From positions 1 to 31,928 of IMG/VR virus record IMGVR_UViG_3300032073_000132: DNA of 31,928 bases, one strand, 5' to 3'. Below, one piece after another: positions 10,160 to 28,519 of the stretch. The stretch comes from a virus. The notes below the pieces were generated by a model. It saw nothing but the letters and a program-made list of their open reading frames with translations. It was not told the origin of the DNA and searched no databases. Made by a program: the position numbers and the translations under genes. Numbering within the stretch: position 1 is the stretch's first letter; every line of letters starts with the position of its first letter.

Positions 10160-11386
10160 TTATTGAGAATTGGGTTTAGGATAACCCAGAATGTCCATCT
10201 GTTTCATAGCAACCTTGTATTCCAGAATAGCATCCATAGCATTATAGGTCAGCAACTCTTTACGGTCTATGAGATGGATGTTGTTGGACTCTTTGTCTTT
10301 ATCGCCAGCAAGATACTTGCCAATGTGTTCGTCATAACTCGGGGCTCCGAGTAGAACAAACGACTGGAACTTGATACTGGATACCCTAGGTCTCTGGTCG
10401 ATAACATGAGCGGCGAGCATCGTGTCCCAGTACCAATTCCGAACACGCTTGCCGAGATGCTTTCTTGTCCATCTATCTTCAAACTTTAAGTTGCACGCAA
10501 TCTTAGGAAGCGGAGAATGAAGAAGCTCACGGGTGGCTTCGATAGCTTCACCCTTCCAGTCATAGGCAATAGTCTTCTTATCATTCCAGCAGATGCCACA
10601 GGAGACGATCCTAGAGCTGTCGCTGTCTGGCTTTATTCTATCCGTCTCATAATCAAAAGCCACTGTACCGCCCTTCTGGATCATCTTACGGATAATCCTA
10701 GCTGCTTGCGATGGCTTGTCTATGATTTCGATGTCTTTGTTGTAATCAGGGACCTCATCGTACGGCTTTCCCTTTAGAGCAAGAGCTGCTTTGATTTGCT
10801 TCTCAAAGTGAATCTTGAGAACTTCTTTTTTGGCATCGTTGGACTTGCTTAATTGATAAACATAGATTGGCGAATAAGTCGGACAGACCCATGCGTTTAT
10901 CTTCTGCGATGGTATCTGAAAACCATACCATCTTGAAGCAGCTCCAATTTGCTCCTTCCATAAATGCGGTATCAGAGAAGCTATGCCAGACCTACCCATA
11001 GGGATGATAACGTCTGGCTTTAACTGCTTGATTGTCTTAATCAGATTGGGTCGGCAGTGGCTTATCTGATCCGACGTTGGCTCTTTACCGCTGTAACATA
11101 TCAGCGAGGTAGTAAGCCAGCAGTCACGTTCTAATCTGACACCTGATTTTCTTAATGCTGATTCAAGAGGCAAAGAAGGGCGTGGGGTGGAGTAAAGTCT
11201 CCCATTCTCATCATCACTTTTGGATGGCGATTCCGAAATGATGAGAATCTTCTTTTTGCCTTCTCCAATATAATTCAGTTTTGGTGAATTACATTTCAGA
11301 TCAAGTTTACAGGCTCCGCATTTAGGAAGGAGACTTGGAGGCTTTTTAGATTCCGTTAAGGAACTATTGAAGAATCCGTTACTCAT
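10160..11386 (-). CDS. Uracil-DNA-glycosylase-like domain fused to a 3'-5' exonuclease domain
   Basis: The 408-residue protein has two domains. Residues about 20-190 resemble Fe-S uracil-DNA glycosylases: CGAC at 23-26, ILIISESPSKSDDENGRLY (47-65) in place of GExPGxxED, and cysteines at 97 and 111 in ICYSGKEPT...HCRPN that could complete a 4Fe-4S site. The usual HPS motif reads TYSP, so glycosylase activity is uncertain. Residues about 238-400 are a DnaQ/Pol I-type exonuclease: Exo I FDYET (244-248), Exo II NLKFED (299-304), Exo III YNAMDAILEYK (381-391). This supplies the proofreading domain missing from the polymerase gene 0.8 kb downstream. ATG at 11,386 is chosen; a TTG lies 9 nt upstream. 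It overlaps the clamp gene by 8 nt. Confidence 0.85.
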   Translation of the reverse strand: MSNGFFNSSLTESKKPPSLLPKCGACKLDLKCNSPKLNYIGEGKKKILIISESPSKSDDENGRLYSTPRPSLPLESALRKSGVRLERDCWLTTSLICYSGKEPTSDQISHCRPNLIKTIKQLKPDVIIPMGRSGIASLIPHLWKEQIGAASRWYGFQIPSQKINAWVCPTYSPIYVYQLSKSNDAKKEVLKIHFEKQIKAALALKGKPYDEVPDYNKDIEIIDKPSQAARIIRKMIQKGGTVAFDYETDRIKPDSDSSRIVSCGICWNDKKTIAYDWKGEAIEATRELLHSPLPKIACNLKFEDRWTRKHLGKRVRNWYWDTMLAAHVIDQRPRVSSIKFQSFVLLGAPSYDEHIGKYLAGDKDKESNNIHLIDRKELLTYNAMDAILEYKVAMKQMDILGYPKPNSQ

Positions 11387-12398
11387 CTTCCGCAATACTC
11401 AGTAAAGTTACATATACAAAATTATCGTTCTCAACTTTGATTAAACTTTCATTTAATTCACATTCATCATGTTGATTGGATATTTCTATGAGCATCTTTG
11501 GTGCGATTCTAAACCTTAGGTCAGAACCTGTATAGTTCACATCGTGAAACTCAGTAAACCATCCAAGATTCCCCTCACCTTTAATCTGCAACTTACCAGG
11601 CTTTAGCTGGACCATAATCATGTCCGAGTCTAGGTTATCAGATGAGAATATTTCTGCCTTCTCCACAGCTTCTGTTATGCCAGCGGGTAGTTTGGTTTTC
11701 TGTCCCTCAAAATCATAGATGCTCTCAAGGTCTGGGAATTCATTTTCTTCGGTGGAGTATCTTCGACACGAGATAACTAGACCAGCGGGGTTCCTAAAAT
11801 GCAACCAATCGTCCGTCTCAGATATCTCATTCATGCCTAAATCAACAATGCTTTTCAAAGTATCTTTACGGATCAGTGCTTTTGATTCTATCTCCGTATT
11901 CAGCTTATATCGGGATGCCTGAAATCTATCTGATGCCTCCAGCTCATTGGGAGTAATATGGACGCACGTTAATCTGAATTGAGTTTCATCTGTACTCGTG
12001 CATTGAGAAACAAGCTGAACGGCTTGATCAAACTCCGACGATAAACTTTTCCAGTCTTCTGGTTTTTCTACCGTCTCAAGAGGGAGTTCTATTTCTTTCT
12101 CCAATCGGATGCCGGCTTCACGCCTCTTCCCTCTGATGATGAATTCACTATCGGTGAATTTTATCTCGATGTTTTCTTCCGTCATCTTTCTTAAAACGGA
12201 TAACAAAGGCTCTGCTTTAACAGCGGCAGTAAAGTTCTCAAGAACAGAATCGCAAGAGCAACTAACTTCTTCGTTGTATGTGTGAAGTCTTCCATCTATG
12301 AATACGAAACAATCTGATTGCTTAATCATTTCACGCTTGCTAAGTCCAGAGCTGGCCATCTCCAACTGAGATAACAAATCATTTTTATTTACTTTCAT
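11379..12398 (-). CDS. DNA polymerase sliding clamp (DnaN/beta-like)
   Basis: The 339-residue length is close to bacterial beta clamps (about 366 aa). Features include the start MKVNKNDLLSQLEMASSGLS, the HITPNELEASDRFQASRYKL stretch (about residues 146-165) that matches the beta-clamp 'ATDGHRLA' region, and LRFRIAPKMLIEIS near residue 300 matching the domain III 'FNxxYLxD' region. It would tether the polymerase to DNA after loading by the DnaX-like protein. It overlaps genes on both sides (ATGA upstream, 8 nt downstream), consistent with a single replication operon. Sequence similarity to cellular clamps appears low, so this call rests mainly on the domain III and DRFQASRYKL regions plus context. 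Confidence 0.8.
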   Translation of the reverse strand: MKVNKNDLLSQLEMASSGLSKREMIKQSDCFVFIDGRLHTYNEEVSCSCDSVLENFTAAVKAEPLLSVLRKMTEENIEIKFTDSEFIIRGKRREAGIRLEKEIELPLETVEKPEDWKSLSSEFDQAVQLVSQCTSTDETQFRLTCVHITPNELEASDRFQASRYKLNTEIESKALIRKDTLKSIVDLGMNEISETDDWLHFRNPAGLVISCRRYSTEENEFPDLESIYDFEGQKTKLPAGITEAVEKAEIFSSDNLDSDMIMVQLKPGKLQIKGEGNLGWFTEFHDVNYTGSDLRFRIAPKMLIEISNQHDECELNESLIKVENDNFVYVTLLSIAEDE

Positions 12399-12862
12399 TT
12401 TGCACCTATAACTTCATGTGTGTGGTAAAAGGCAAATTCATGCCCTGATATTTTTAACGTCTCCAGCTGGCACCTTGAGTTGGTTACCGTTCTGATTTTT
12501 TGATTCAAGAATATAAACATCTCACGAACAATAGAATCGCCATTGGCTTTTTCTGTTGATATGACATCACAAACATCTCTGCCTCCGAGATGGATAAACT
12601 CCTCTAGGGTTTCGTCATCATATTCTATGAATACTTTGTTATCATAATTCTTAATGAACTCATCTTGAATATAGTCCTTCTCAAATAAATGCAGCAGCTT
12701 ATGTGTCAGCTCATCATAGTTGCCTACGATTTTTAGCTTTGTTCTTAATTGCATTGCTGATAGTTTGCCGTATTTGTTTTCGACGCTGTCAAACTCCCTT
12801 ATCATTATCGAGATGGGAGCAAACGCAACTGTGTTTTTTCTGATGGTTCGATTCTTATCCAT
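12395..12862 (-). CDS. Hypothetical 155-aa protein
   Basis: No family is recognised. The protein is mixed alpha/beta, fairly acidic in the middle (DNKVFIEYDDETLEEFIH), with no signal or membrane segment. The ATG at 12,862 follows AAGGAAGA and overlaps the end of the glycosyltransferase gene by 8 nt; its TGA overlaps the clamp ATG. The position between a DNA-modifying enzyme and the clamp suggests a replication or modification accessory, which is inference. Confidence 0.7.
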   Translation of the reverse strand: MDKNRTIRKNTVAFAPISIMIREFDSVENKYGKLSAMQLRTKLKIVGNYDELTHKLLHLFEKDYIQDEFIKNYDNKVFIEYDDETLEEFIHLGGRDVCDVISTEKANGDSIVREMFIFLNQKIRTVTNSRCQLETLKISGHEFAFYHTHEVIGAK

Positions 12863-13997
12863 TCTTCCTTACCAATTCCATTCCGTAGTTATTTGTTTCC
12901 TTCGTTTTAGTCACTCCAGCACGCAGTACCGGCTTGTTTTTCTTGAACGGAGTATAATCCACGTGGTGGTGCCATCGACCCCATCTCCAGATAATATTAA
13001 CGACATCAGGATGCTGCTCCTGTAGGGACTTGGCAAAGGACATTCGGTAGTCCTCATCATTGTATACGTGATCCGTATTGCCTCCCTTCATGCCGCCGTT
13101 ATCTTTTCCAGTCCCCTTATGGGTCGTGAACTTCTGCATCGTAAAGGCTGCGAATAAAGCAGTGCACAATCCATCCTTTAGCATACGCAAAGATAGGTCT
13201 GTGTCCTCATTGTATCGCCCTCGCCACCTATAATCTAGGTCTGTATCGATTAGGATGCAGGAGTAAACTCGGCTGTTGAATATGAAGGCTGCTTTTCTTG
13301 GGTCTCGGTCTGCGACAAAGCCTCGACTATGAGGTCCGGCCAAAGCAATGTTTTCATAACGATCAGCAAAGTCCTCCATCGCATTAAAGAATCCCCCACC
13401 TCTCACAATCAATCTTCGATTCATATGAGTTCGGGAAAAGTCGGTGATATTATCGTCCACTATCCAATGTCGTTTATGCCCTCTTTCTTTCGCCCATTCC
13501 CAGATAAAGTTTCTTGCTGGGATAGAGCCTTCTCCTAAGTCGTGAAAGGGCATGACTTCAACTTTATCTTCTCCGAGATGCTCTTTGTATAAATCACCTT
13601 CTGTCTCCTCAACAAAGAACTTATAGTTGACTCCCAATGAGTCAAGAACTTTACCAGTTGTCTGGACATCGTGTCGTCCTTTGGATGGGATACAGATAGG
13701 GTATCGGCTATCTATTTTCGGACCTTCGTATTGGAACTCACCCCTTAGTTGATCCTGTGGAGGATAGAATAGTGAGTTGGTCCTGTTGGTTACCTTTGCT
13801 CCTATCTTTTCAGCAAACTCTAGGACATCTTCATACGTCATAAAGTTCATAGTAATTCTTTGCGACGGCTGGGCATCATTCATCGTATAGTCGGGCATTC
13901 CCCACCAGTGCTCACGCCAGTCTGGTTCTATATCGAACAGTCCACTTTTCTTCTCACGAGTCGGTCGTCGTGAAGCCAAATCATCTATCGGATCCAT
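12855..13997 (-). CDS. TET-associated-type DNA glycosyltransferase
   Basis: The 380-residue protein starts with a module containing HWWGMPDY, QRITMNFMTYEDVLEFAEKI and SLFYPP (residues 30-80), a block often found in phage DNA-modification proteins. A GT-A-type catalytic domain follows: YPICIPSKGR (99-108), FFVEETEGDLY (127-137), GSIPARNFIWEWA (157-169), the DxD-like WIVDDN (178-183), and RGRYNEDTDLSLRMLK (259-274). This order matches the TET-associated glycosyltransferases, which add sugars to hydroxymethyl-pyrimidines in phage DNA. No TET/JBP dioxygenase or hydroxymethylase is visible in this window. The ATG at 13,997 follows GAGGAGA. Confidence 0.82.
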   Translation of the reverse strand: MDPIDDLASRRPTREKKSGLFDIEPDWREHWWGMPDYTMNDAQPSQRITMNFMTYEDVLEFAEKIGAKVTNRTNSLFYPPQDQLRGEFQYEGPKIDSRYPICIPSKGRHDVQTTGKVLDSLGVNYKFFVEETEGDLYKEHLGEDKVEVMPFHDLGEGSIPARNFIWEWAKERGHKRHWIVDDNITDFSRTHMNRRLIVRGGGFFNAMEDFADRYENIALAGPHSRGFVADRDPRKAAFIFNSRVYSCILIDTDLDYRWRGRYNEDTDLSLRMLKDGLCTALFAAFTMQKFTTHKGTGKDNGGMKGGNTDHVYNDEDYRMSFAKSLQEQHPDVVNIIWRWGRWHHHVDYTPFKKNKPVLRAGVTKTKETNNYGMELVRKNG

Positions 13998-16240: not shown

Positions 16241-17638
16241 TTAGAAGGTACTTCTGATGGCTGGATTCCCGACATCTAAACAGCCTGCGACATGGATACA
16301 TTGATTCTCTGAGAAGGCTGACTCACGTAGGACGATCCAATTTAACCGTGTGATCCCATTCTCCTTTTCTTCCGCTGTCGCATTAAGCCCAACCATACCA
16401 GTGACGTGAGCAAACTTTCGTTTGTCTTCACTGAAGTTAGACCGACCAATCGTATTGGTGTTATATGAACTTGCGTCGGCTTGAGTAGCGGTTACCAGTA
16501 AGCAATGATGCGATTGAGACAGGGCACGAAGCTGCTTCCAGTTGGCGTTAATTTGGTCCCGTGTCTCTTTGTACCCATGAGGAGCGGCAAGAATATCCGC
16601 ATAGTCAATAACGATAACATCAGGCACCCAACCGTCACGCTCCCAAGAGGCCAGAATAGATTTCATTCCAGAGACAGTAAGAGTAGAGTTAGGATGACAA
16701 GACAATCTAAGCATCGAATCCTGTGATTTGATTTTGGAGGCTATTATCTTCTGGCAGGCTTTACGTGCCGATTGCCAACCAATCTCCTTCTGCTGATTCC
16801 TATTCTCGTGTTCTATCAGAGCAATAGGAACTCCTGGCTCACGTTCAATATGGGTTGGGTAATCATAGGATCTAGGCTTGAGAGGCCTTCGAACAGCACG
16901 AGTCATAAATCGCCGCATGATTTGATTCTGACTCATATCGCCAACTTCAAAGAAGGCAACCCTTCGACGCTGACACATAGCACGCCAAGCAACGTCAATG
17001 AGCCACCATGTCTTGCCTCTTTTCTCAGCCCCCATGAAGGCGATAAAAGCATCACGCTGAAGTGCCCCCTTAAAGAACTTGCCTAGGTCTCCTGGATATT
17101 TGACGATGGCTTCTTGCTGCTCTTGAAAGGCCTCTTTCATAGCATCGTCGTCGGTAAGAACATCGATGCCCGCTCCCGTACCCATTTCTACTTGACCATA
17201 TGTATTGATTCGATCAAGGGCGGTATCAATATCTTCATTTACTAAGTCGCCTTTAATCGACTCACTAAGTGACGAAAGTTTTACCTTATTGAAATAGGCT
17301 GACGCTTGGTCGATTATGTAATTTGAATTAGATGCTTCAGCTCTTGCTTCATATTCATCAGATAATCCAGACAGAAACTTATCGACAAGCTCAACTGTTT
17401 CTTCGTCCTGGGCTGACTTAGATACCCAAGATTCAAAAAGGGATTCTATCTCTTGCTTAGGGGCTGTCTCATATTCATTGTAGAAATCAATACACCAAGT
17501 GGCGACCAGATTACCCCATACTGATTTGAATAGATTGTGTTCCCATTTGGATGCGATTCTTCCTAGGACGTGAGTATCGACAATCATGCCGATTAGAATT
17601 TTACGTTCCTCACTGCCATCACGTTTTGTTACTTTCAT
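16241..17638 (-). CDS. Replicative DNA helicase (DnaB-like)
   Basis: The 465-residue protein has a helical N-terminal part (1-165) and a RecA-fold C-terminal motor. Walker A is GAEKRGKTWW (203-212), the Walker B aspartate is in VIVIDYADIL (341-350), and a DnaB H3-like region is in HHCLLVTATQADASSY (about 377-392). The end SENQCIHVAGCLD may include the arginine-finger strand. DnaB-type hexamers unwind forks 5'-3'. The gene overlaps the winged-helix replication gene by 20 nt, and that gene is preceded by primase, so the three probably form a primosome. It closes its transcription unit before C module 4. Confidence 0.88.
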   Translation of the reverse strand: MKVTKRDGSEERKILIGMIVDTHVLGRIASKWEHNLFKSVWGNLVATWCIDFYNEYETAPKQEIESLFESWVSKSAQDEETVELVDKFLSGLSDEYEARAEASNSNYIIDQASAYFNKVKLSSLSESIKGDLVNEDIDTALDRINTYGQVEMGTGAGIDVLTDDDAMKEAFQEQQEAIVKYPGDLGKFFKGALQRDAFIAFMGAEKRGKTWWLIDVAWRAMCQRRRVAFFEVGDMSQNQIMRRFMTRAVRRPLKPRSYDYPTHIEREPGVPIALIEHENRNQQKEIGWQSARKACQKIIASKIKSQDSMLRLSCHPNSTLTVSGMKSILASWERDGWVPDVIVIDYADILAAPHGYKETRDQINANWKQLRALSQSHHCLLVTATQADASSYNTNTIGRSNFSEDKRKFAHVTGMVGLNATAEEKENGITRLNWIVLRESAFSENQCIHVAGCLDVGNPAIRSTF

Positions 17639-18809
17639 CTGACTCGTGTAATCTCCGTATGAATTTGTGTACTTCCGTGGACTGTCTGCCGTAATCAGAA
17701 AATATCTGACCTAGCTGTTTAGTAAAAACAGGTGAGTCAATTCTGAATACAAACGGCTGGAGCTTCCCACTCCAATCCGGCCAGTTGACTATTCTGGACC
17801 ATACTGACTCAAACCATTTCTCCACAAAGTGGCTGGTCTGTGGCAGGGATTCGATAACATGATTCAAAAGACTCTTGAATCGGTCATTCTTCATTCTTTC
17901 TACACGCTCGGACAGCTCATCTGACGATACTTCTTTGAATAGGTTATGGACTTTACTCCGAAACAAGTCGTAAGCATCTAAGCTAATCTGGACGTATCCT
18001 ATAAGATTATCGTCACAGTCACCGGGCCAATTCTTCGTGAGGAGTCTTTCGGTTATCTTTTTGGCTTCTTCGGATATGACAACGTCTGGTTTACTATCTG
18101 ATTTTGTCCGATCAATAGCATCCAGTAGCCTATGGAATTTATCTCTGAAGGATTTGGCCGTATGACATTTTGGTGTCCATTGGTCAGTATGATTTTTAGC
18201 GTACCAATCCAATGCCATTGTGATTTGGTCTTCTTCAATCTGGTCAGATTCTCTCATCAATCTGATTTGATTTGGCCAACTTTTTGGAACAGACCTCTTT
18301 CGTTTTTTTGCAGGCAGATACTCAAGAAGTCTTTGGCAACATTCGTAGTCGAAAGGATAAACTTCATCTGGAATTTCACAGAAATCAAAACCAAACGACG
18401 GAGTTGCCGCATATGCTTTTTTATTTATCTTCCCCGTAGGGGAAGAGAGGGTAGCACTGGAGTTTAACTCAGAGTTAAACTGATTGTTTAAGACTGGTTG
18501 ATTATTGACATGACTGGTTCTGTTCATGTCCGGCACCACTGATAGGGTTCTTATGTGCCGCCTCCTGCCATCGAACTTTACTTGCTCGATGAACCCACGC
18601 TGCTTTAGATTTTTAATCATCCTTGAAATATAAACTTGACTGACGGCTAAAACTTTAGCAAAGTATTCATTGGAGGCGAAGCACCCATTTTTGGATTCTT
18701 CCAGATTTCTGATAATTGATAGCAGTTGGACCTCTCTAACTGATAGGTCTCCAGAGACCATCAGATTCCAAATCTCAGCTGGTATCCATACGCCTTTGAA
18801 TTTACTCAT
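17619..18809 (-). CDS. Winged-helix replication protein, probable initiator or helicase loader
   Basis: Residues about 1-90 form a winged helix: IWNLMVSGDLSVREVQLLSI, then NEYFAKVLAVSQVYISRMIK as the helix-turn-helix, and RGFIEQVKF...RRRHIRTLSV as the wing. This resembles the N-terminal domains of phage replisome organisers. A low-complexity Asn/Ser linker (about 95-125) leads to a helical C-terminal region with no Walker motif, so it is not a DnaC-type ATPase loader. It lies between primase and DnaB, overlapping both. A role in origin recognition and DnaB recruitment is inferred from domain layout and position. Confidence 0.75.
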   Translation of the reverse strand: MSKFKGVWIPAEIWNLMVSGDLSVREVQLLSIIRNLEESKNGCFASNEYFAKVLAVSQVYISRMIKNLKQRGFIEQVKFDGRRRHIRTLSVVPDMNRTSHVNNQPVLNNQFNSELNSSATLSSPTGKINKKAYAATPSFGFDFCEIPDEVYPFDYECCQRLLEYLPAKKRKRSVPKSWPNQIRLMRESDQIEEDQITMALDWYAKNHTDQWTPKCHTAKSFRDKFHRLLDAIDRTKSDSKPDVVISEEAKKITERLLTKNWPGDCDDNLIGYVQISLDAYDLFRSKVHNLFKEVSSDELSERVERMKNDRFKSLLNHVIESLPQTSHFVEKWFESVWSRIVNWPDWSGKLQPFVFRIDSPVFTKQLGQIFSDYGRQSTEVHKFIRRLHESDESNKT

Positions 18810-23053: not shown

Positions 23054-23818
23054 ATGCCGAAGAAAGTATGGAAGGATGAGAATTACATACTCGCCTATGA
23101 GTTAGCCAAGTCTGGCATGAGTGAAATTAAGATGGCTCAAGCTCTCGGAGTATCCACTGTGACTCTGCGTAAATGGAAGGATACAAAGCCAGCCCTTAGA
23201 TTTGCGATTGAGAAGGCGAGTTCAAATGGAGGCTCAGAGAACATGTCCACTGTGCAAGACTTTCACGAGTACATATATCAAAAGCTGCCATCGCATCTAG
23301 CTAAGATATGGGATGAGATACAGGCTGTTGAGCACGAAGATAACTCCATCCTAAAGATTGAAGCTATGCTGAAGGGAGCGGGTAAAAGAGGCCGCCAGCA
23401 TTTGTTCTTACATGCTCTTGTCACGTCCAACTTCAACGTAAGTCGTGCTTGCTCTATGATGAATATGAGTCGAAAGACATTTGAGAATTGGGTAACGAAT
23501 GAGCCGGAGTTTGGAGAGCTAATGCAGGAGATTGACTTTCATAAAAAGAACTTCTTTGAGGCTGCCCTTATAGGTCTTGTCGCTGGGGGCGATTCTTCAG
23601 CCACCATTTTTGTGAACAAGACAATTAATCGAGACAGGGGATATAATGACAAGATAGAATTGGACGTAAGAGGTTCAGTTCAGCACGAACATCTCCACGC
23701 CCATATCCCGATGGACGAATTAAATTTGAGCTTGGATGTTAAGCGTGAAATTTTGAAAGCAATACGATTCCGAAATCAGAGTATTGATAATGAATCCGAA
23801 GAGGCCATTGCGAATTAA
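23054..23818 (+). CDS. Putative terminase small subunit (DNA-binding)
   Basis: The 254-residue protein contains two helix-turn-helix-like segments: SEIKMAQALGVSTVTLRKWK (residues 23-42), and FNVSRACSMMNMSRKTFENW (about 128-147). The second repeats the 'SRACxxxxMSRxTxxxW' form common in small terminases. A helical region and AALIGLVAGGDSSATIFVNK follow, which resembles the oligomerisation part of phBC6A51-like small terminases. It would bind the packaging site and recruit the large subunit encoded 1.1 kb downstream. The ATG at 23,054 follows AAAGGAGAT. A general DNA-binding regulator cannot be excluded. Confidence 0.7.
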   Translation: MPKKVWKDENYILAYELAKSGMSEIKMAQALGVSTVTLRKWKDTKPALRFAIEKASSNGGSENMSTVQDFHEYIYQKLPSHLAKIWDEIQAVEHEDNSILKIEAMLKGAGKRGRQHLFLHALVTSNFNVSRACSMMNMSRKTFENWVTNEPEFGELMQEIDFHKKNFFEAALIGLVAGGDSSATIFVNKTINRDRGYNDKIELDVRGSVQHEHLHAHIPMDELNLSLDVKREILKAIRFRNQSIDNESEEAIAN

Positions 23819-24413: not shown

Positions 24414-24904
24414 TGTTTGAGCATAGTTTTACGGAGCCAGGAGAGACCATCGTGCCAAAGACAGCATCCAAAAATGTAAACCAACCCGATCATTATAATT
24501 ACGGACCTCATGAGGTCATAGATATTATCATGGATCTGAGATTAGATAATGCAGAGGGTAATGTTGTCAAATATATTATGAGGCATAAATACAAAAACGG
24601 TCGTGAGGATATCGAAAAAGCACACCGATATTTGGAGCTTATTCGTGACAACTATGCCCACTGGTATAAGAAGGACCGAGACATAAACCCGCGAGGGGAA
24701 TATGACGACCGAAAGGATTTGATTCTCAAGTATTCTATGGATATGGAATTAAATGTCTATGAAGCAAATGCGTTTCTTAATGTGGCGATGCATAGATGGG
24801 ACGTAAGGAAACATGAGATGATAGATGATGCTCTGGAATACATCTCTAAGATTCTACTCAATTACGATAGTTGGTATGAGAAAGAAGACCTAAATGAGTC
24901 CTAG
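24413..24904 (+). CDS. DUF3310-family protein
   Basis: The protein (163 aa from the ATG at 24,413; a TTG three bases earlier is less likely) contains NQPDHYNYGPHEVIDIIMDL and GNVVKYIMRHKYKNGREDIEKAHRYLELI split around residue 45. These are the hallmark blocks of DUF3310, widespread in phages, often beside nucleotide-metabolism or packaging genes. The biochemical role is unknown. The C-terminal half (about residues 95-160) appears to repeat the helical plan in degenerate form (YEANAFLNVAMHRW...DALEYISKIL). It overlaps the large terminase start by 11 nt. Confidence 0.8.
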   Translation: MFEHSFTEPGETIVPKTASKNVNQPDHYNYGPHEVIDIIMDLRLDNAEGNVVKYIMRHKYKNGREDIEKAHRYLELIRDNYAHWYKKDRDINPRGEYDDRKDLILKYSMDMELNVYEANAFLNVAMHRWDVRKHEMIDDALEYISKILLNYDSWYEKEDLNES

Positions 24905-26351
24905 TTTCAGCGAGACAGATCTTGTCCGAAGTATCACCCAACAGTCCTTCTATGAGTTTCTCAAAGAGTTCTGGGACGTAATCATACCCGAAGAACCAGT
25001 ATGGAATTGGCATATAGAGTATCTTTGCGATGAGTTACAAGAGATAGCAGAACGTGTCTTTGCCGGAGAGCCGAAAGAACACGACCTCATAATTAATATC
25101 TCCCCCGCTTCAACCAAGTCCACTATCGCATCTGTTGCCTTTCCCGCTTGGACTTGGACTCGTATGCCAACGGCGAGACATATATGCGGTAGTCACGCTT
25201 TTGATTTGGGTATGGACTTATCCAGAAAGTGCCGAGACATAGTTTCGACACAAGATAGAGTGGCGAATAAGGCGTGCTATTACGACTGTTTCCCTGAGAT
25301 ACAATTAAGAGATGACCAGAACACTAAGGGGTACTTCGCAAATACCAGAGGCGGTATGCGCAAATCAGTAACGGTAGGCGGTAAGTCTCCGGTGGGATTT
25401 CACGCTCACTTTCTAATCATCGACGACCCTATTGACCCGCAGAAAGTCTTATCGGATGCTGAAGTAAAGAAAGCAAACACATGGATGAACGAAACACTCC
25501 CATCCAGAAAAGTCGATAAGACTCTGACCCCTACGATACTCATCATGCAACGTCTGCATCAGAACGATCCGACTGGCAATTGGTTAGAGAAAACAAGAGG
25601 GACGGATAGCGTTAAGCACATATCACTTCCAGCAGATTTATCTGATGGCTTTGAAGTTAAGCCTAAGCACCTAGCCCACTACTATAAGGACAAGCTATTC
25701 GATCCGCTAAGACTCCCAAAGGCCATACTCAAAGAATCTCGCACACTATTAGGAGAGTTTGGATACAGTGGACAATATGGACAGAATCCAGTACCGTTGG
25801 GCGGCGGTATGTTTAAGGTTGAGCGGGTTAGAATAGATGACTGCCCTGCCGATAGGGAGATTAAACAAAAGATTAGATTCTGGGATAAGGCGGGTACAGC
25901 AGGTGGTGGAGCCTACACAGTCGGAGCATTAATCGGAGTAGATAGGGACAATCGGTATTGGGTACTCGATGTAGTGCGAGGTCAGTGGGATTCTAGTGAG
26001 CGTGAGAAAGTAATACAGCAGACAGCAGAAGCTGATGGTAAGGGAACGGTAATAGGTCTAGAACAAGAGCCTGGTTCGGGTGGTAAGGAGTCCGCAGAAG
26101 CTACTGTAAGGCGTCTTGCTGGCTTCAGAGTAAGGATAGATAGGCCGACAGGGGACAAAGCATTACGAGCTGATCCATTTAGCTCTCAGGTTAATTCTAA
26201 CAATGTGTTCTTAAAGCGGGCCAATTGGAACTCCGACTATCTTGAGGAGCTTAGGTTCTTCCCAGCATCGACGTATAAAGACCAAGTGGACGCATCTAGT
26301 GGCGCATTTAATCTACTGTGTGCCAAAAAGAAAAGGGTTGGGGCGTTGTAG
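24894..26351 (+). CDS. Terminase large subunit
   Basis: The 485-residue protein has an N-terminal ATPase and a C-terminal RNase H-like nuclease. The Walker A-like loop is ISPASTKST (69-77), Walker B is HFLIIDDPID (172-181), and the coupling motif is probably TILIMQRLHQ (214-223). Nuclease acidic residues are D331 in RFWDKAG, E390 in GLEQEPGSGGK, and D465 in YKDQVDASSGAF. It cuts concatemeric DNA and pumps it into proheads. Walker A has PAST in place of the usual G-rich loop, as in several phage terminase groups. The long repeat array starts about 100 bp after its stop. Confidence 0.93.
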   Translation: MSPSFSETDLVRSITQQSFYEFLKEFWDVIIPEEPVWNWHIEYLCDELQEIAERVFAGEPKEHDLIINISPASTKSTIASVAFPAWTWTRMPTARHICGSHAFDLGMDLSRKCRDIVSTQDRVANKACYYDCFPEIQLRDDQNTKGYFANTRGGMRKSVTVGGKSPVGFHAHFLIIDDPIDPQKVLSDAEVKKANTWMNETLPSRKVDKTLTPTILIMQRLHQNDPTGNWLEKTRGTDSVKHISLPADLSDGFEVKPKHLAHYYKDKLFDPLRLPKAILKESRTLLGEFGYSGQYGQNPVPLGGGMFKVERVRIDDCPADREIKQKIRFWDKAGTAGGGAYTVGALIGVDRDNRYWVLDVVRGQWDSSEREKVIQQTAEADGKGTVIGLEQEPGSGGKESAEATVRRLAGFRVRIDRPTGDKALRADPFSSQVNSNNVFLKRANWNSDYLEELRFFPASTYKDQVDASSGAFNLLCAKKKRVGAL

Positions 26352-26449
26352 TACCATGATAGCTTGTAGTCAATGTGTTATCTTTCTGACCCAAGTCATA
26401 GTCATCTTCTCCGCTTGCTCTGTTCCGGTGGTGTGTAGCCACGTTCAAA
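26352..26449. other. Non-coding spacer after the terminase
   Basis: About 100 bp between the terminase stop and the repeat array. A 36-codon frame starting at 26,357 encodes a Cys-rich hydrophobic peptide but has no ribosome-binding site. No terminator is visible. Confidence 0.5.
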
Positions 26450-27255
26450 AGGTGCTGAGACGCTAGGAGATATGCTGAGAAGCTCTGAGAGGTGCTGAGA
26501 TATGTTGATATATGTTGAAGCCAATAACCTACGTTCTGAGACGTTCTGCGAGGTGCTGAGCTTCCTAGGAACTACATTTCTTGGCTAGGAACGTCCTAGG
26601 AACTACATTTCTTGGCTAGGAACGTCCTAGGAACTACATTTTCGGTCGATGTACTACATTTGCATTACATTTGCGGGCATAGGAGCTTCCTAGGAACTAC
26701 ATTTTCGGTCGATGTACTACATTTGATCTACATTTGCGGCAAATGTACGTCCTAGGAACTACATTTTCGGCAAATGTAATACATTTGCACTACATTTGCG
26801 GGGGTAGGAGCTACATTTGCCTACATTTGAGCTACATTGTAGTACAATCGAACAGAATTTGAGCTACATCCTCCTACATCCTTCTACATCCGCCTACATT
26901 TGAATTACATCTTCTACACCTGTAGTACAATCGAACAGAATTTGATCTACAAATGTACTACATCCTCCTACATCCTTCTACATTTTGAGTATAGGAGCTA
27001 TATTTGAGCAGAGTGTACGTCCTAGGAACTACATTTTTGGGCTAGGAACGTCCTAGGAACTACATTTGCGGAGGATGTAGTACATTTGATCTACATTTTT
27101 GGGCGTGGAAGTACCTAGGAACTACATTTCTCGGCTAGGAACGTCCTAGGAACTACATTTTTAGGCAAATGTACTACATTTGGTCTACATTACGCGGCAT
27201 GGAAGTACATTTGTATTACATTTGCGGAGGATGTACTACATTTGCACTACAATTT
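26450..27255. repeat. Helically phased, decamer-based non-coding repeat array
   Basis: About 800 bp with no plausible gene on either strand. The left part (26,451-26,520) is a 10-bp tandem repeat of GNTGCTGAGA type, with TGAG or a variant at 26,456, 26,476, 26,486, 26,496, 26,506 and 26,516. It passes into nine copies of CCTAGGAACTACATTT at 26,564, 26,595, 26,626, 26,689, 26,751, 27,021, 27,052, 27,114 and 27,145, mostly 31 or 62-63 bp apart. Between them TACATTT, TACATCC or the inverse AAATGTA recur every 10-11 bp. Local palindromes include CTAGGA-ACG-TCCTAG and GCAAATGTA-A-TACATTTGC. About fourteen CTAG tetranucleotides are present. A binding site for a polymerising protein, an origin, or a packaging or partition site are all possible. 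Confidence 0.85.
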
Positions 27256-27333
27256 CGACGTAGTGAGCAGATAGGTTAGGGGATGAGCACGAGATTCTAT
27301 ATGCTGAGAAGTAATGAGGGGGTGTGAGAGAAT
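27256..27333. other. Array flank and leader of the next gene
   Basis: G-rich stretch with more TGAG(A/C) words (TGAGCAG, TGAGCAC, TGAGAAG, TGTGAGAG) resembling the left end of the array. No clear -35/-10 pair or strong ribosome-binding site is seen before the ATG at 27,334. Confidence 0.4.
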
Positions 27334-27621
27334 ATGAGCGATTATGAGCAAGAGCCTATTGGGCCATACGTCAACTATTTGGATTTGATAAGTAATAAAG
27401 GCCTCAGAACCTCAATATTTGAATATCCAGAATACGTCAGGGAGGATAAAATCTTAAACAGTGGAGGGAGCCCACTTGCGAAAGTAGTGACCACTGAGGG
27501 CGAGGAGTTACACATCGTCCTAATTTCTTCCTTTGATGGCAGACATTGGTTCTGCTGGATTATCGAGCATCAAAGGTTCGACATAATGGAGACAGGAAGG
27601 CAATGGCAGAATGGCGAGTGA
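27334..27621 (+). CDS. Hypothetical 95-aa protein
   Basis: Starts MSDYEQEPIGPYVNYLDLIS and ends WQNGE. It looks like a small alpha/beta protein with beta strands around KVVTTEGEELHIVLISSF and FCWIIEHQRFDIM. No family is recognised. It is the first gene after the array, and its last 11 nt overlap the metallophosphoesterase start, suggesting co-translation. Confidence 0.7.
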   Translation: MSDYEQEPIGPYVNYLDLISNKGLRTSIFEYPEYVREDKILNSGGSPLAKVVTTEGEELHIVLISSFDGRHWFCWIIEHQRFDIMETGRQWQNGE

Positions 27622-28519
27622 TTTACCGTTTCACGTTTCTAAGTCGGGTAAAAATCTCTTTGATATCAACATGACTTTAAGAGGAGGTTACGCTGCTGAA
27701 TGGGAGCAGTGGGTTCTTCTTTCTAGTGATAGACATTGGGATAATCCAAAGTCGGATCACGCACTACAGAAAAAGCATCTAGACCAAGCCATGGAAAGAG
27801 ATGCGATCATAATAGATGCTGGCGACTTATTCTGTGCTATGCAGGGCAAGTACGATAAGAGGTCATCTAAGTCTGACGTAAGATCAGAACATAATGTGGG
27901 TAATTACTTAGATGCTTTGATTCAAACTGGAGCAGAGTTCTTCGCCCCATACGCAAAGAACTTCGCATTGGTCGCAGCGGGTAACCATGAGACAGCTATT
28001 AAGAAAAGGCATGAGACGGATCTTACTGAGCGGTTCTGTTCTACTGTGAACTACATATCTGGTGAGACGATTCACAACGGCGGCTATTCGGGCTTTGTTC
28101 GTTTTAAGCTGACGGAGATTTACGATGGTAAACAAAAGAGCCTTGGAAGAAATGTCACGCTCCATTACTCCCACGGATATGGAGGAGGAGGCCCTGTTAC
28201 CAAGGGAGTAATTCAGACGAATAGGAAAGCAACGTATCTGCCAGACGCGGACATCGTTATCTCAGGCCACGTACATGAGTCATGGCAGATAGAGTTGATG
28301 AGAGTAAGAGTCGGACGCAGTTCTATCTTCCATGATACACAGACCCATATTTGCTTGCCAACTTACAAAGAGGAATTCGGAACTGGATTCGGAGGATGGC
28401 ATGTGGAAAGAGGAGCACCACCAAAACCCGTTGGAGCTGTATGGCTTCGATTTCATTATGTAAATTCAAGAGACCCTGTTAAACGAGGATTGAAATACGA
28501 TTTGATAAGAGCAACGTAG
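27611..28519 (+). CDS. Calcineurin-like metallophosphoesterase
   Basis: The 302-residue protein has the metal-ligand series of the family: DRH (40-42), IDAGDLF (68-74), AAGNHETA (122-129), LHYSHGYGG (184-192) and ISGHVHE (217-223). It should bind two metal ions and hydrolyse a phosphomonoester or phosphodiester; substrate cannot be predicted. Related phage enzymes lie in varied contexts, including DNA repair (SbcD-like) and nucleotide or cyclic-nucleotide hydrolysis. No SbcC partner is nearby. The position just after the repeat array and before portal genes gives no clear pathway. GGAGGAG follows the stop region rather than preceding a start. Confidence 0.85.
   Translation: MASDLPFHVSKSGKNLFDINMTLRGGYAAEWEQWVLLSSDRHWDNPKSDHALQKKHLDQAMERDAIIIDAGDLFCAMQGKYDKRSSKSDVRSEHNVGNYLDALIQTGAEFFAPYAKNFALVAAGNHETAIKKRHETDLTERFCSTVNYISGETIHNGGYSGFVRFKLTEIYDGKQKSLGRNVTLHYSHGYGGGGPVTKGVIQTNRKATYLPDADIVISGHVHESWQIELMRVRVGRSSIFHDTQTHICLPTYKEEFGTGFGGWHVERGAPPKPVGAVWLRFHYVNSRDPVKRGLKYDLIRAT

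Follow-up and report, generated by a model that had tools for sequence, protein, structure and literature searches.

Results

A non-coding word array separates TerL from orf95

The window, meaning the whole stretch of DNA analyzed here, is a 31,928-bp virus contig. Its left side encodes, on the minus strand, PolA, a clamp, a clamp loader, a primase, a DnaB-like helicase, an O-like/DnaD-like initiator, RecA and an SNF2 helicase. One ORF beside PolA (10,160–11,395) contains both uracil-DNA-glycosylase-like and 3'-5' exonuclease domains. A TET-associated glycosyltransferase (TAGT, E 2e-40) at 12,855–13,997 hints at hypermodified DNA; a search for Tet_JBP gave no match in the records searched, and the same search matched no control genome either. 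Late genes occupy the plus strand from 23,054 and run in the order TerS (small terminase, 23,054–23,818, with two HTH regions), a Lar-like protein, DUF3310, TerL (large terminase, 24,894–26,351), the array, orf95 (95 aa, 27,334–27,621), a calcineurin-like phosphoesterase (27,611–28,519) and the portal. The window TerL is less than 60% identical to that of every GenBank phage matched.

The array, which we call version A, spans 26,450–27,270 and is assigned to neither strand. A sequence-only reading of this DNA had described it as non-coding, and this stands in that no ORF of at least 60 aa occurs on either strand, with the qualification that a 36-aa plus-strand ORF (26,356–26,466), similar to a small ORF found after TerL in a relative, L004, runs into its left edge. 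Coding repeats are ruled out by the lack of a long frame together with a 31-bp unit that shifts frame. The array consists of words of about 10 nt, in both orientations and from several families, partly ordered as 31-bp units of three words. Its left block (26,450–26,562) holds TGAG-type words in an approximate 10/20-bp repeat with 73–82% matches, where an exact 10-bp tandem of TGAGA had been proposed. The 31-bp unit TCCTAGGAACTACATTTCTTGGCTAGGAACG follows (26,563–26,641), with 2.5 perfect copies compared to 4.5 in the contig L001, and then 62/63-bp units containing TACATTTG and inverted CAAATGTA words (26,631–26,812). A central block (26,808–27,000) combines 10-11-bp words of the CTACATCC / CTACATTTG type with a duplicated 83-bp segment, and a right block (27,017–27,256) is built from 31/62/93-bp units with four copies of CCTAGGAACTACATTT.

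Exact copies of CCTAGGAACTACATTT start at 26,564, 26,595, 26,626, 26,689, 26,751, 27,021, 27,052, 27,114 and 27,145, and these nine copies reproduce exactly the spacings of the sequence-only reading (31, 31, 63, 62, 270, 31, 62 and 31 bp); allowing up to three mismatches gives 11 matches versus 0.27 expected. Recurring TACATTT and TACATCC words are present as described, and the reported abundance of CTAG was confirmed, with 14 occurrences in the array versus about 3.5–5 expected, compared to a depletion elsewhere in the window (54 versus 96 expected). Single copies of CCTAGGAACTACATTT also occur at L060:2082, L061:4378, L062:1872, L065:2420, L066:1263 and L068:2457, all within one homologous 5' leader of a conserved gene in another phage group, and are probably due to chance. 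Searches for array relatives in annotated phages and plasmids returned weak matches only (best E 0.02); one of these lies immediately upstream of a rep gene on a plasmid.

The array varies by whole units between near-identical genomes

We found array A in the same slot of L001, L002 and L067, all from other metagenomes, which gives four A contigs with the window. The window and G001 (L001) share an identical left flank over 5,557 nt and a right flank with 2 SNPs over 5,228 nt, and despite this near-identity the G001 array shows a change of +62 bp. L002, separated from the window by 5 SNPs over 6.3 kb, carries a 31-bp chimeric replacement in the array (−31). L067, with a flank 2.2% diverged, shows several unit-sized changes, including changes of 31, 62 and 10 bp. 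For 8 of the 21 substitutions between the window and L067, the local 9-mer variant exists elsewhere in the window array, a pattern that fits possible exchange between copies. The array thus has the tandem units of about 10–60 bp that define minisatellites or VNTRs (periods of 31, 62/63 and 10 bp) as well as their whole-unit copy variation in near-identical genomes, with exact copy numbers uncertain because short-read assembly can collapse or expand perfect 31-bp repeats.

Helical periodicity and curvature are particular to version A

Autocorrelation of the array, which the sequence-only reading had proposed as a check, gave the peaks it anticipated, a period of 10.38 bp and a 31-bp super-period (score 2.31 versus at most 0.61 among 200 shuffles, z ~20 relative to dinucleotide shuffles). 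The best rival 800-bp window among those tested within bases 1–26,000 scored 0.60, at a different period. TACAT copies are coherent in phase at 10.38 bp over about 64 turns (R = 0.93), with no excess over interval-shuffled order (p ~0.15). Curvature prediction, also proposed there, likewise came out in favor of array A: in a wedge model with angles as in published tables, it is predicted to be the most curved segment of the whole window, with a period near the helical repeat and a mean bend over 125 bp that is 5–9 z units above shuffles.

A sister phage, L003 (TerL 88%), carries an array of about 1.0 kb in the same slot, with almost wholly different words (version B); a second B contig, L079, is a fragment ending inside the same array. 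Array B in L003 can be divided into contiguous words of 9, 10 or 11 nt (35, 26 and 33 words, respectively; 98 word starts), each made of AA, TA or TT, then CATG, CATTG, CATTTG or CAAATG, then a short linker. The word ACATTTG/CAAATGT is common to A and B. The period of array B is 9.90 bp, and the wedge model predicts no curvature excess over 125 bp (z −0.3 to 1.0), with an AA-only model giving z up to 2.9 at shorter spans. Array B also shows no phase lock, its coherence being below that of shuffled word order. Period and predicted curvature single out the window array as a curved, helix-phased element, and neither is conserved in the homologous slot of L003. We rejected a helical phase lock maintained by selection, with A not above interval-shuffled order and B below. 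Because array B has a 9.90-bp period without 125-bp bend excess or phase lock, short words, and not helical geometry, are the property common to A and B.

Close relatives lack an array in the slot

All four A contigs retain about 0.7–1.0 kb of untranslated DNA, as does L003, the only B contig to span the slot. The slot holds no array in L004–L007 and L010 (TerL 81–83%) or in L008 and L009 (TerL 74–76%), and no comparable array was found in 16 further relatives (TerL 51–61%, mostly near-complete, scanned whole or nearly). In G005, TerL, orf95 and the phosphoesterase are directly joined in the same order as in the window. The sequence-only reading had held that absence of the array from close relatives with the same gene order would speak against it, and such relatives exist at 82% TerL identity, TerL-orf95-phosphoesterase order included. 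The small ORF after TerL is intact in L004, is clipped by the array in the window, and has gone from L067 and L003, whose arrays begin at the TerL stop.

G008 has no array in the TerL slot and carries another word array (C) in a different late spacer; searches with exact word patterns from B and from C turned up arrays solely in their own contigs. At L250:2880–4310 (G008, reversed coordinates 58410–59830) lies a non-coding array of about 1.4 kb in which 46-bp modules (TCTCGGTGATCTCGTCCTAYRAAACAAGGGG...) are interspersed among 12-bp CCAGG words, with inverted GATCC/GGATC tracts at its borders, upstream of a holin-like gene, and another G008 spacer (L252:3300–3530) contains about 200 bp of CATG-centred words (GTCATGACAGATGTCATGAC...). 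Short GTAAACC and GTAACC words in both orientations, about 10-11 bp apart, occur at L039:3150–3550, L045:5050–5450 and L059:3200–3500, in the gap that separates TerS from a divergently oriented large gene (712–841 aa) on the minus strand. Repeats of about 65 bp (AAACGAGATTTCTGTCAAC with GGTAAACTTGC) occur at L279:4700–5010, in phage-like sequence from a Myxococcaceae bin.

Evidence bearing on packaging, replication, partition and RNA-level roles

The packaging, origin and partition roles that had been suggested for the array found no backing in these comparisons. The TerS HTHs are nearly invariant across the window, G003, G004, G005 and G008, in phages with or without arrays, while the array words change or vanish. 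We rejected a TerS-specific pac site on this basis, the array being absent from the slots of G004, G005 and G008 although the TerS HTHs are conserved. Like phage pac/cos sites read by small-terminase rings, the array adjoins the terminase genes and, in version A, contains curved DNA; it differs from them in its size (0.7–1.0 kb) and in TerS DNA-binding motifs that stay unchanged as the words change or vanish. The partition-site reading gained no support, with neither a ParB-N nor an RHH_1 domain found in six records and none of the scanned window proteins matching a par gene; a Pfam RHH_1 search of the window did not recover the RHH protein named in the sequence-only reading. ParR-type centromeres consist of many direct repeats in a row, of about 10–12 bp. 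The array resembles ParR-parC and other plasmid centromeres in its many sites of about 10-11 bp in a row, but it is several times longer, holds words in both orientations and is absent from close relatives.

A replication origin, with the array as an iteron cluster of the phage initiator, is highly improbable. The words are repeated, and both a replisome and an O-like/DnaD-like initiator are phage-encoded, but the array sits in the late region and is missing from relatives with the same initiator family. The minus-strand initiator gene (17,619–18,809) moreover carries words of its own, which led us to reject the array as origin: its linker contains repeated and inverted TTAAAC-GTTTAAC-GTTAAAC at 18,455–18,495, and the G005 linker has TTGTGCAA/TTGCACAA words in the same place. 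These iteron-like words differ between species and match no array words, and a lambda-type origin within the O-like initiator gene is likely.

We consider it very unlikely that the array acts at the RNA level, as an untranslated structured spacer of the late transcript serving polarity, processing or a guide-RNA array such as TIGR. Folding energy is low in both A and B (z ~−6) and hairpins reach 20–40 times the window density, but because hairpins do not exceed those of word-shuffled arrays, the presence of words in both orientations accounts for the strong folding. Fold-back copying should leave adjacent hairpins, but these likewise show no excess over word-shuffled arrays, and a fold-back hairpin origin was rejected. 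The array has no Rfam match, no excess of promoter or terminator clusters and no terminator-like site. TIGR arrays are phage-borne, with 8–12-nt elements, a Nop-domain protein and alternating edge/loop repeats with variable 9-nt spacers (PMC12045711). The likeness is limited to phage-borne arrays of 8–12-nt elements: no Nop domain was found in five records, and the array lacks the dual-repeat, 9-nt-spacer anatomy, so TIGR-Tas was rejected.

Discussion

We favor, with somewhat better than even confidence, the interpretation that the array is a hypermutable, non-coding, minisatellite-type word array in a late-operon spacer that needs no obligatory role in packaging or replication. It would have been born in the common ancestor of the window phage and L003, its words and units gained, lost and exchanged via replication slippage and unequal or non-allelic recombination, and in two lineages it may have erased the small neighboring ORF. 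The curvature and 10.4-bp period of version A would then be by-products of the three-word, 31-bp unit and not a selected property. The absence of the array in relatives is suggestive of a locus for which no sequence-specific function would be needed. The likeness to minisatellites and VNTRs lies in non-coding sequence, unit-sized length polymorphism in near-identical genomes and chimeric units; the differences are words of about 10 nt from several families and in both orientations, a setting in a compact phage late operon, and sister phages whose arrays in the slot use different words.

Perfect 31-bp repeats are prone to misassembly, but an assembly artefact, which would have undone the sequence-only reading, is exceedingly improbable because the array recurs, in the same order, in three contigs from other metagenomes, and L003 and L079 carry a parallel array. 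That reading had itself pointed to DNA geometry, in which intrinsic curvature at the helical repeat would be the selected function. The period, the 125-bp bend and the window-wide curvature maximum in version A all agree with such a function, but sister array B in the same slot has none of these and falls below shuffled order in coherence, and the slot of close relatives has no array at all; we regard geometry as quite unlikely and as largely refuted by array B. Because the sister uses other words, off the helical rhythm, a hypervariable satellite seems a better description of the array than a helix device.

Similar-size arrays in the same slot of sister phages, together with their common ACATTTG word, hint at possible selection for having an array. 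Retention of the untranslated DNA in every A contig and in L003 also counts against the favored reading, as does, to a lesser degree, the striking TACAT coherence, given its lack of excess over interval-shuffled order. Because both sister phages keep such an array there, room is left for a fast-evolving binding platform, on which a cooperative phage or host DNA-binding protein could act in a centromere-like manner or in condensation, packaging or late-gene control, with words and reader co-evolving rapidly. About 1 kb of sites of about 10 bp would load a filament or ring, array size and slot persist with new words around a common core, and the 10-11-bp spacings resemble ParR-type centromere repeat length. 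The near-invariant TerS HTHs across phages with A, B, C or no array, the lack of ParB-N, RHH_1 and par genes within the records and proteins searched, and close relatives without an array argue against this possibility, which we hold tentatively and judge unlikely on the whole. In a related and rather unlikely alternative, the architecture (about 1 kb of words of about 10 nt in a late-operon spacer) would be selected while its vocabulary is replaced between sister species, in parallel to rapidly evolving satellite centromeres, with either a cooperative DNA-binding protein as its reader or an arms race as the driving force.

Untranslated repeats of about 1 kb are rare in compact phage genomes, and here two sister phages fill the same gap with almost entirely different array words while a third relative has its array elsewhere. 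The comparison of A and B shows that finding a helical period in a single genome does not suffice to infer a DNA-geometry function. If neutral, the hypermutable array would offer a clean natural system for the birth and turnover of short-word satellites in a virus; if selected, it would represent a fast-evolving cis element with a putative reader.
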